A DNA stretch of 64,000 bases. It comes from Natronospira bacteriovora. GTDB taxonomy: Bacteria; Pseudomonadota; Gammaproteobacteria; Natronospirales; Natronospiraceae. Within the stretch, counting starts at the first letter, position 1; each line of letters opens with the position of its first letter. The stretch spans positions 434,001 through 498,000 of the forward strand of contig NZ_JAVDDT010000001.1 of the NCBI RefSeq assembly GCF_030848495.1, given 5' to 3'. Of this stretch, positions 3,592 through 38,396 are shown in pieces. The position numbers and the translations under genes are program-made. Below the pieces are notes generated by a model, which had not been told where the DNA came from, searched no databases, and saw only the letters and a program-made list of their open reading frames with translations.

Positions 3592-4692
3592 ATGCAAGCT
3601 TCAAACCCGCAACGGCCCGCCCCCGCGCAGGCCGCCGACGCTGACACACCTGCCGAGCCCCTGCCGTGGCCGATGCCCCGCCGGGCGCCCACCGTGGATC
3701 GCGGCCAGGTTCCGGATTCCGAACTGGAAGACCGTTTCGGCCGGCGTTTCGCCTATCTGCGGCTTTCCATTACCGATGTCTGCAACTTCCGTTGCGAGTA
3801 CTGCCTGCCGGACGGCTATCAGGGCCGGCCCACCGGTTTCCTGCACCAGGCCGAAATCGGCCGGCTGGTGCGCAGCTTCGCCGAGCTGGGCATCCGCAAG
3901 CTCCGCATTACCGGCGGCGAGCCGCTGGTGCGCAAGGATGCCCTGGCCATCATTGCCGAGGCCGCCGCCACCCCGGGCATCGAGAAGGTGGCCCTGACCA
4001 CCAATGCCTTCAATCTGGCCCGTCAGGCCGAGGCCCTGCGCGAGGCGGGCCTTTCCGCCATCAATATCAGCCTGGACAGCCTGAACCCGGAAGGCTTCGA
4101 GCGCATCACCGGCGACAAGCGTTTCGACAAGGTCATGGCCGGCATCGACGCGGCCATTGCCGCCGGCATTCCCAGTGTGAAGATCAATACCGTGCTGCTG
4201 GGCGGGCTCAATGATCATGAAGTGCCTGACTTCATGGAGTTCGTGCGTGAACGCCCGGTGGCGGTGCGCTTCATCGAGCTGATGCAGACCGCCGACAACG
4301 GCGAGTATTTCCGCCGCCGCCATGTCAGCGGCCAGACCGTGGCCGACCGCCTTCAGGCCGCCGGCTGGGTTCCGCAGAAGCGCGGCGAAACCGATGGCCC
4401 GGCGGTGGAATACACCCACCCGGACTACGCCGGCCGCATCGGCCTGATTGCCCCCTACGCTCCCGGTTTCTGTGACGGCTGCAACCGCCTCCGGGTCACC
4501 GCCCGTGGCGGCCTGCGACTGTGCCTGTTCGGCAACGGTACCCACGACCTGCGCCCCCTGCTCCAGGACGACGCCGACATGCCCGCTCTCAAGCGCAGCA
4601 TCTGCCAGACCCTGGTGGGCAAGGAAGTGTCCCATCATCTGCATGAGGGCGATTTCGGCGATACGCCGCACCTGGCGAGCACGGGCGGGTGA
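3592..4692 (+). CDS. moaA: GTP 3',8-cyclase MoaA (molybdopterin synthesis)
   Basis: A 366-residue radical SAM enzyme for the first step of molybdenum cofactor synthesis, conversion of GTP to 3',8-cyclo-GTP (then to cPMP with MoaC). The N-terminal cluster motif is CNFRCEYC (C64, C68, C71). The C-terminal substrate-binding cluster uses C294, C297 and C311. The protein ends in the essential Gly-Gly pair (365-366). An N-terminal extension of about 45 proline/alanine-rich residues precedes the usual start of the domain. AAGGAG lies 6 bp before the ATG. It leads a cluster with moaC, a molybdate transporter, moaD, moaE and mobA. Confidence 0.96.
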   Translation: MQASNPQRPAPAQAADADTPAEPLPWPMPRRAPTVDRGQVPDSELEDRFGRRFAYLRLSITDVCNFRCEYCLPDGYQGRPTGFLHQAEIGRLVRSFAELGIRKLRITGGEPLVRKDALAIIAEAAATPGIEKVALTTNAFNLARQAEALREAGLSAINISLDSLNPEGFERITGDKRFDKVMAGIDAAIAAGIPSVKINTVLLGGLNDHEVPDFMEFVRERPVAVRFIELMQTADNGEYFRRRHVSGQTVADRLQAAGWVPQKRGETDGPAVEYTHPDYAGRIGLIAPYAPGFCDGCNRLRVTARGGLRLCLFGNGTHDLRPLLQDDADMPALKRSICQTLVGKEVSHHLHEGDFGDTPHLASTGG

Positions 4693-4697
4693 GGGCG

Positions 4698-4873
4698 AGT
4701 GAACAGTGAACAGTTCCCAGTGAACAGAAAACCGGGTCTTTCCTGTTCTCCTGTGGGAGGGGCATTCCTGCCCCGACATAGGCTTCGGCGGAGCCCCAGT
4801 CGGGGCAGGAATGCCCCTCCCACAGACAACTGGTACAAGCCCACTGTTCACTGGGAACTGTTCACTGTTCACT
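4698..4873. repeat. Nested palindrome with heptamer arms and REP-like core
   Basis: Outer arms 4698-4727 and 4844-4873 are perfect 30-bp inverted repeats, each built from 7-bp units (GTGAACA, GTGAACA, GTTCCCA, GTGAACA). Inside them, 4751-4777 and 4799-4825 form a perfect 27-bp inverted repeat (CTGTGGGAGGGGC...), which resembles REP-type elements. The loop (4781-4795) can itself fold. The element fills nearly all of the moaA-moaC spacer, so it would be part of the operon mRNA. It encodes nothing. Confidence 0.93.
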
Positions 4874-4900: not shown

Positions 4901-5392
4901 ATGACCGAGCCAAACTACCGCATGGTGGATGTGGGCGAGAAGCCGGTGACCCGCCGGCGTGCCATCGCCACGGGGCGGATTGTGGTGGGCCCTGAGGTGA
5001 TGGCGCATCTGCGTGAGGGCGAGCTGCCCAAGGGCGACCCCCTGCGGCTGGCCGAGGTGGCGGCCATTCTGGCGGCCAAGCGCACGCCCGACCTGCTGCC
5101 CCTGTGCCATCCCCTGATGCTGGATCACGTGGGATTGATCTGTCGCTTGAACGAGGCCGAACAGGCGGTGGATGTCTTTGCCACCGTGGTCACCAGTGCC
5201 CGTACCGGGGTGGAGATGGAAGCCCTGGCGGCGGTCAATGCGGCCCTGCTCACCATCTGGGATCTATCCAAGCCGATTGAAGCGGCGCTGGAGATCGGCG
5301 GTGTGAAGCTGCTGCTCAAGGAAGGCGGCAAGTCCGGCCGCTGGGAACACCCGGATGGGCTCGCCGGCCTGCCGGCGGAGCTTGCCGCATGA
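4901..5392 (+). CDS. moaC: Cyclic pyranopterin monophosphate synthase MoaC
   Basis: A 163-residue protein of typical length for MoaC, which turns 3',8-cyclo-GTP into cyclic pyranopterin monophosphate in the cytoplasm. Family hallmarks seen are MVDVGEK near the N-terminus, LLPLCHPL (about residues 65-72), the TGVEMEAL stretch, and the DLSKPIE segment with the K of GVKLL following. GAGGA lies about 11 bp before the ATG. Its stop overlaps the start of the next gene (ATGA), so the transporter is probably translationally coupled. The spacer from moaA is occupied by a long palindromic repeat. Confidence 0.96.
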   Translation: MTEPNYRMVDVGEKPVTRRRAIATGRIVVGPEVMAHLREGELPKGDPLRLAEVAAILAAKRTPDLLPLCHPLMLDHVGLICRLNEAEQAVDVFATVVTSARTGVEMEALAAVNAALLTIWDLSKPIEAALEIGGVKLLLKEGGKSGRWEHPDGLAGLPAELAA

Positions 5393-6802: not shown

Positions 6803-6886
6803 GAGTTCTGAGTTCTGAGTTCTGAGTTCTGAGTTCTGAGTGCTGAGTGCTGAGTGCTGAGTGCTGAGTTCTGAGTTCTGAGTGCT
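6803..6886. repeat. Heptamer tandem repeat, 12 copies
   Basis: Twelve back-to-back copies of a 7-bp unit in two variants, GAGTTCT and GAGTGCT, ordered as five, four, two and one. It starts 2 bp after the moaD stop. Every unit carries TGA; because 7 is not a multiple of 3, all forward frames are closed. No facing arm was found nearby, unlike the other repeats of this kind in the window. Copy number is likely unstable by slippage. Confidence 0.95.
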
Positions 6887-6912
6887 GAGTGGGGCGGTGG
6901 TTATCGGCAGCG

Positions 6913-33765: not shown

Positions 33766-33814
33766 GGCGATTTGTTCGAAAAGGGTTCTCATCGGGCCTC
33801 CCTCTCCGCCACAC
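33766..33814. repeat. Direct repeat copy 1, ends in inverted copy of tRNA-Ser 3' end
   Basis: Matches 34242-34290 at 48 of 49 bases. Its last 18 bp (33797-33814, CCTCCCTCTCCGCCACAC) are identical to the 3' end of the tRNA-Ser gene plus its CCA and 3 bp beyond, but lie on the opposite strand to the tRNA. Confidence 0.93.
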
Positions 33815-33820
33815 GAAAAA

Positions 33821-34099
33821 GGTTCTTCGCGGAAAAGCGGGGAGGAAGTTCGGGCGTGGTGGCCGGGGCGGGTCTTGGTGGCCCTGCCCAGAACGCGCCG
33901 TGAATACGTCCCTGTAGGCTCGAGGGAAACATCCCTGTTTCCCACGGTTCTGGGCAGGGCCACCAAGACCCTTTCCAGAGCGGTGATTCGGCGGGTTGGT
34001 GGGGGCGTGACCGGAAGCGTAAGGGGAACCACTGCCCGCTCCCACCAACCCGACGCCCCTAACCGCTCGGCGCCCCCCCCCGCTTTTCCGCGAAGAACC
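33821..34099. repeat. Nested inverted repeats
   Basis: Outer perfect 22-bp arms at 33821-33842 and 34078-34099 (GGTTCTTCGCGG... and its complement). Inner perfect 25-bp arms at 33870-33894 and 33947-33971 (GGGTCTTGGTGGCC... and its complement) enclose 52 bp. The left flank 33825-33872 recurs at 48527-48574. Confidence 0.93.
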
Positions 34100-34241
34100 C
34101 AAAAAAAAGCCACCCGGTGCGCCGTACTGGTTATTCACCTGGTGCCTGCTCGACCGTGGGGATTGCCAGGCGCATCCCTGCGCCTGGCCCTCCGCTTCGC
34201 TCCGGGCTCCGCGCATGCGCGCTACGCGACAAATCGCTCCC

Positions 34242-34290
34242 GGCGATTTGTTCGAAAAGGGTTCTCATCGGGCCTCCCTCCCCGCCACAC
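34242..34290. repeat. Direct repeat copy 2 beside tRNA-Ser terminator
   Basis: Second copy of the 49-bp repeat at 33766. Its last 18 bp match the inverted tRNA-Ser 3' end at 17 of 18 bases, so the tRNA terminator is bracketed by a long palindrome (34273-34290 against 34323-34340). Confidence 0.92.
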
Positions 34291-34318
34291 AAAAAAAGCC
34301 ACCCGATTGGGTGGCTTT
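34291..34318 (-). terminator. Terminator of tRNA-Ser
   Basis: On the minus strand, AAAGCCACCC pairs with GGGTGGCTTT around AATC, then seven T in all. It starts 8 bp after the encoded CCA. Confidence 0.93.
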
Positions 34319-34677: not shown

Positions 34678-36700
<2,023 letters not shown>

Positions 36701-38297: not shown

Positions 38298-38396
38298 CAG
38301 GAACAAGGAGCAAGGAGCAAGGAGCAAAAGGCCCAACAGTGCCACTTTGGCAAGTCTGTCGGTTTTCGCTCCCTGCTCCCTGCTCCCTGCTCCTGA
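38298..38396. repeat. Inverted heptamer arms within guaBA spacer
   Basis: Left arm 38298-38328 is built of AAGGAGC units; right arm 38363-38396 of GCTCCCT units, its near complement (four mismatches and one extra base). The arms enclose about 34 bp. The right arm ends beside the guaB stop codon. In the guaBA transcript this would be an imperfect hairpin of about 30 pairs. Confidence 0.88.

Follow-up and report, generated by a model that had tools for sequence, protein, structure and literature searches.

IVP (PF05635) is a four-helix bundle and belongs to the family of the protein encoded in the intervening sequences (IVS) of 23S rRNA. To our knowledge, it has no known catalytic site. The relative with a solved structure, XCC0516 (2gsc), is presumably a pentamer. 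Tandem repeats of heptamers are known from cyanobacteria as STRR. Elhai et al. reportedly described in 2008 that small dispersed repeats of Nostoc are embedded in heptamer arrays.

The title of the XCC0516 structure paper, as given in the reference list of PMC3936711, refers to five four-helix bundles. The number of IVP genes in cas loci is given as 18 in an excerpt of the same article (PMC3936711), which places them among the CRISPR-Cas-associated functions. For the IVS of Coxiella, excision by RNase III and a 28-bp stem are described in sections of PMC4990558, which also locate 23S IVS in rRNA helices. According to an excerpt of PMC10053308, PF05635 has a homologue in Avd, a protein of diversity-generating retroelements. 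This homology suggests that IVP may handle nucleic acids. Among the bacterial heptamer repeats, 70 convergent inverted pairs of GGGAATC were counted in X. campestris in an excerpt of PMC4692102. In the open full-text literature (most subscription journals and preprints were outside its scope), no report of a link between IVP and heptamers was found, the heptamer repeats and IVP being treated separately.

Here, a palindrome between moaA and moaC of Natronospira bacteriovora was analyzed within a window of 64,000 nucleotides, together with its relatives in the own genome (G000), in two genus relatives (G001 and G002) and in public genomes. The window element lies between two protein-coding genes and not inside a 23S rRNA gene, and its copy is without an IVP/S23 ORF, which was found in one sister copy. 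Stand-alone IVP genes have the IVP family in common with the 23S rRNA IVS, which likewise consist of one ORF between complementary ends forming a long stem. In contrast to the IVS, the arms of stand-alone IVP genes are tandem heptamers and most copies in the own genome are ORF-less. Moreover, no rRNA was detected in the 20 stand-alone IVP loci scanned with Rfam (out of 74 located), and an rRNA location of these genes was therefore rejected.

The elements resemble the MITEs and small dispersed repeats of Nostoc in being short, gene-less palindromic repeats with few gene-bearing relatives, and the terminal inverted repeats are common to both forms, since the arm string of the window copy also flanks an IVP gene. 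Unlike in Nostoc, no classical transposase with the same arms was found, IVP being the only domain in the gene-bearing copy, and the arms have a period of 7 with free sequence. As in REPIN/BIME systems with RAYT, the window core consists of two inverted REPs with the head GTGGGAG and the RAYT of the genome is REP-flanked, whereas REPINs have no tandem heptamer arms and most armed copies described here have no REP core. No RVT_1 (PF00078) reverse transcriptase, as present in diversity-generating retroelements, was found in G000 or G001. A reverse transcriptase was therefore rejected as the partner of IVP in these genomes, where an Avd-like partner is not evident.

Structure of the moaA-moaC palindrome

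The spacer between the stop codon of moaA (4690-4692) and the ATG of moaC (4901) has a length of 208 bp. The features in and around it are as follows (positions in the window):

3592-4692, plus strand: moaA, upstream gene (NCBIfam, 342 bits), stop codon 5 bp before the start of the left arm
4698-4727, plus strand: outer left arm, heptamer array AGTGAAC-AGTGAAC-AGTTCCC-AGTGAAC-AG (repeat search)
4728-4750, no strand: left core edge, from arm to REPIN, similar by reading to the core edge of another REPIN-cored element (L015:5507)
4751-4777, plus strand: REP 1 of the REPIN, 27 nt, GTGGGAG head at 4753
4778-4798, no strand: REPIN centre
4799-4825, minus strand: REP 2 of the REPIN, perfect inverse of REP 1
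4826-4843, no strand: right core edge, from REPIN to arm
4844-4873, minus strand: outer right arm, perfect inverse of the left arm
4901-5392, plus strand: moaC, downstream gene (NCBIfam, 159 bits)

The initial annotation had reported two perfect inverted repeats in this spacer, an outer one of 30 bp and an inner one of 27 bp, with outer arms built of 7-bp units, and the repeat search agrees with it. The outer arms of 30 nt (4698-4727/4844-4873) were found to be 100% complementary. The inner inverted repeat has a length of 37 nt (4751-4787/4789-4825) and a complementarity of 89%, with its outer 27 nt (4751-4777/4799-4825) being perfect. The predicted RNA fold of the palindrome stretch is one long stem of -139.4 kcal/mol, compared to -69.9 +/- 5.6 kcal/mol for 200 shuffled sequences (z -12.5). 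Because of this fold and of the 153 matches that were obtained when the whole spacer was used as query against the own genome, the palindrome is far beyond chance.

The inside, which had been described as REP-like, is an ordinary REPIN (4751-4825) and as such already known biology. It is composed of two inverted REP palindromes with a conserved head, and dispersed copies of the core are present in G000, G001 and G002. Arm-free REP pairs were identified in the own genome, for example at G000:C8:146928/146979 with an identical 51-bp register, and also in both genus relatives. The cognate RAYT of the own genome was identified with 144.7 bits against the model of the REP-associated tyrosine transposase and is flanked on either side by inverted REPs of a sister REP sequence. 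The remark that ordinary REPs have no heptamer arms was correct and proved to be the useful clue. The arms, and not the REPIN core, are the new part of the observation.

A family of armed palindromes

The sequence is not unique, as a search of the genome and its relatives for arms and core revealed copies both in the own genome and in another genome of the genus. An assembly artefact was ruled out by this other genome and by the distribution of the copies over many contigs. Reading of the matches yielded 36 armed places with GTGAACA-type arms in the own genome. Three genomes of the genus contain the exact 17-base arm pattern (29/31, 8/10 and 1/1 in forward/reverse direction), which was found in none of 53 other relatives. 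No match of the window palindrome was found in plasmids.

The usual copy consists of two facing arms and a core of 107-119 bp (25 of the 29 cores measured; core measurement and edge alignment covered 29 of 31 elements, two being skipped). Most cores belong to one homologous family, beginning with GGCCGTGCC, in a comparison whose first row, supplied as the reference, was slightly out of register with the core. A REPIN core is present in a few armed copies, including that of the window, and a non-REP core in most. The cores occur in both orientations. In 8 predicted pairs of the core family no compensatory changes were found, and a conserved RNA fold of the core was therefore rejected. The upkeep of arms by gene conversion that had been proposed in the initial annotation may occur, but the arms of other copies show an unequal order of units, which would equally fit slippage.

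The neighbouring genes of the 36 places, as predicted by a simple GC-frame gene caller, were co-directional in 28 cases, convergent in 7 and divergent in none, with one place having no called neighbour. The corresponding numbers for the element-free spacers of the same stretches were 78, 22 and 20. The upstream stop codon was found at a distance of at most 20 bp at 31/35 places; two of the 36 places had been omitted from this count, one of which is 33 bp from the stop codon, hence the fraction given. This site bias could result solely from the counterselection of insertions in promoters and genes.

An unusually dense region of the own genome (G000:C3:138776-145680, L009) contains six armed palindromes at gene boundaries within about 7 kb. 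An integron-like array, which was suspected from the clustering on C3, was rejected, as rnf, metG and further operon genes lie between the copies (gene names assigned by eye).

Turnover between species

The comparison by eye with the two genus relatives covered seven armed sites of a single region. Two of them are without an element in both relatives, where the spacers measure only 46/51 and 39/27 bp. At one site G001 has a scar of 17 bp in which parts of both arms are left, at another arm remnants are present in both relatives, and at a further one the GTGAACA element is retained in G001. The spacer downstream of metG carries four palindromes in four sequences, namely GTGAACA arms in the own genome, GAGCTGC and AAGCTNC in two contigs of G001, and a REPIN in G002. 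The spacers at these seven sites are strongly diverged, and no target-site duplication was recognised by eye. Movement of armed elements was not observed in the sites compared.

The two contigs of G001 (G001:C38:1-1242 and G001:C39:552-2689) both contain the metG region and differ in the heptamer palindrome downstream of it, as a result of either strain mixture or a duplication.

Between moaA and moaC, both relatives have a REPIN of other sequence and no arms. This supports the recent formation that had been proposed for the palindrome at this place.

The IVP-bearing copy and further IVP loci of the genus

One armed copy of the own genome (G000:C3:170116-170628) encloses a gene. Its product was identified as IVP (PF05635, 111 bits), and the string of the left arm in the window also flanks this copy at G000:C3:170116-170146. 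Its left core edge was aligned with those of the gene-less cores and scored above all 200 shuffles in 10 of 29 cases. The right core edge had a clear match to none of the gene-less cores, and no similarity was found between the REPIN core of the window and the IVP-bearing core.

Three further IVPs were found in the own genome and one strong match in G001. The units flanking these four are GAGTTCT (7 bp), CGTTGT (6 bp), GGACTGA (7 bp, on one side only) and, in G001, an 8-mer. Although GTGAACA arms are present in G001, its one strong IVP match has the 8-mer arms. Among the five IVP loci of the genus, no matching arm is present on the right side of L060, and the units of L062 are hexamers with an arm score of 9.5. 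In another genus that has IVPs with TAGGCAG arms, gene-less TAGGCAG palindromes were also found. No IVP match was obtained in phages with one query.

The window contains several other repeats. A tandem array of GAGTTCT with 12.6 copies (6803-6890) adjoins a REP (GTAGGCGCGGATTCATCCGCG at 6912). Its unit is the arm unit of another IVP gene of the own genome (L056), and no second arm matching the array was found in the stretch read. A hexamer array of CGTTGT with 8.3 copies (36582-36631) is built of the same unit as the arms, likewise hexameric, around the IVP gene at G000:C4:249407. Inverted 7-mer arrays of AGGAGCA (38299-38327) and GCTCCCT (38368-38393) resemble a further gene-less heptamer palindrome (38299-38393). 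Finally, a 55-nt direct repeat with 96% identity was found at 33766-34296, the copies being 476 bp apart, with 25-bp inverted repeats in between.

Heptamer arms of IVP genes across phyla

For the detection of arms at IVP genes, the left flank was aligned to the reverse complement of the right flank, and shifted positions in the same loci served as controls. The score threshold of 14 was chosen after the first set of loci, in which IVP was located in 74 of 75 (it was missed in L132), and was then left unchanged for the named, plasmid and phylum sets. Among the named loci of public genomes, 50/75 reached this score compared to 1/138 in-locus controls; these are 75 of 80 loci, the 80 being the best of at least 584 relatives. 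According to the record titles, they span the Pseudomonadota, Bacteroidota, Acidobacteriota, Planctomycetota, Gemmatimonadota, Chloroflexota, Verrucomicrobiota, Bacillota and others. In the phylum sample, from which four loci with short flanks and two duplicates were dropped, the score was reached by 42/63 IVP loci and 1/131 controls. For plasmid loci, nearly all cyanobacterial, it was 10/16 and 0/32 (16 of 31 records used). About one third of the IVP loci is below the threshold in all three sets. Mismatched pairs of the named loci reached the score in 10/450 cases, a higher rate than for the in-locus controls that results from the arm units common to related species.

Strong tandem flanks have a period of 7 in 67/76 (named loci) and 55/60 cases (phylum sample), followed by a period of 8. 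When read inward, the units contain more G than C in 70/74 left and 74/79 right arms that show a difference. Cyclic GTGA or GGGA (GKGA) was found in 76/162 units, whereas 300 shuffles yielded 33 on average and 47 at most. The window unit GTGAACA fits this tendency, being G-rich inward with GKGA. Thus, stand-alone IVP genes are generally associated with inverted heptamer arrays of locus-specific sequence. The arms vary in their letters by locus and keep period, polarity and symmetry.

The IVP loci L137, L139 and L141 of Xanthomonas have GGGAATC arms, so that the Xanthomonas heptamer repeat GGGAATC is identical to the arm unit of IVP loci in this genus. In contrast, excerpts of the studies on GGGAATC in Xanthomonas (PMC4692102) and on TAACTGA in Beggiatoaceae discuss quadruplexes and translation and give no element or protein; terms of the IVP family had no match in the excerpt of the Beggiatoaceae study, and neither had '23S' in that of the Xanthomonas study.

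IVP genes are located within operons. In Nostoc edaphicum and Calothrix PCC 7716, the IVP gene runs antisense to the neighbouring gene on either side. It is located between cas6 and cas4 in Anabaena 90 and Pseudanabaena, and between cas10 and the Cmr3 gene in Picosynechococcus. Of these antisense and cas loci, that of Calothrix PCC 7716 has no arms reaching the threshold. For IVP genes in cas loci, insertion of armed elements is a simpler explanation than a function in CRISPR-Cas.

Discussion

The heptamer arms as the usual flanks of IVP genes point to an overlooked kind of mobile element. The window palindrome is probably a gene-less relative of such an IVP-associated element, whose core has turned into a REPIN and whose mobility would be driven by IVP.

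The elements form a family of palindromes with arrays of 7-bp units as terminal inverted repeats (here GTGAACA/GTTCCCA). The gene-bearing form carries one gene, that of IVP, and the core in the window is a REPIN, itself an element of the RAYT type. IVP, if pentameric as in the solved relative, may recognise the G-rich period-7 arms as ssDNA or RNA hairpins and promote the copying or insertion of arms in cis and in trans, and the gene-less copies would spread in trans. Our preferred guess is a hairpin-binding IVP, with the chemistry being performed by host replication or repair. Slippage by whole units would let the arm sequence differ by locus while the period stays at 7. In the operon mRNA, the arms would form one long predicted stem that is probably cut by RNase III, in analogy to the 23S IVS of Coxiella, and an insertion after a stop codon would therefore be tolerated.

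The main alternative is that the heptamer hairpins are resident, having arisen by slippage and template switching, and that IVP elements insert there, so that the arms are the target and not a part of the element. The gene-less copies of the own genome have cores of one homologous family with near-constant length (25/29 with 107-119 bp), which would be missing from a hairpin formed by mere slippage. The left core edge that these have in common with the IVP copy also argues against resident hairpins, as does the common polarity of the G-rich GKGA units over many phyla. On the other hand, the IVP loci of one genome differ in their arms (GTGAACA, GAGTTCT, GGACTGA and CGTTGT), as if they had landed in different palindromes, and the 23S IVS, too, are placed in rRNA helices (PMC4990558, in the sections mentioned). 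Taken together, we regard resident hairpins as unlikely.

It is quite improbable that the window palindrome is an ordinary REPIN moved by the RAYT of the genome, with the heptamer arms as an incidental later addition. The REPIN nature of the core, the register shared by the armless REP pairs (G000:C8:146928/146979), the RAYT with 144.7 bits between inverted REPs and the armless REPINs in the moaA-moaC spacer of both relatives are consistent with it. However, this accounts for the inside alone and is inadequate for the arms, since most armed copies are not REP-cored and since in other phyla the arms surround the IVP gene itself.

A cis-acting RNA hairpin selected to set the expression or mRNA decay of moaA/moaC, as had been considered in the initial annotation, is the least probable reading and was not supported, since, despite the very stable predicted fold (z -12.5) and the position of all judged copies downstream of a gene with none in divergent spacers, the arms recur in dozens of unrelated operons, the core is found in both orientations with 0 compensatory changes in 8 predicted pairs, the moaA-moaC spacers of the relatives have other palindromes instead, and purifying selection on insertions would give the same site bias. 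Some effect of a long hairpin in the operon mRNA on decay or processing is possible, judging from the predicted fold.

Returning to the IVP-associated mobile element, a wider interpretation is offered tentatively, at somewhat less than even chances. Stand-alone IVP genes and their gene-less satellites may represent a phylum-crossing mobile class without a known recombinase, whose ends would be recognised by hairpin symmetry and by their period, mostly 7 and more rarely 8 or 9 with a tendency to G-K-G-A, and not by a fixed sequence. This class may be the source of heptamer arrays in Xanthomonas, cyanobacteria and other bacteria.

Two old loose ends are joined in this way, the IVP proteins of unknown role and the unexplained heptamer repeats. 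If the link holds, the role of IVP could be tested directly by the binding of armed hairpins, and the arms of IVP genes would predict the positions of gene-less satellites in any genome. Furthermore, an IVP gene located within a cas or other operon may have been inserted there and need not contribute to the function of that operon.
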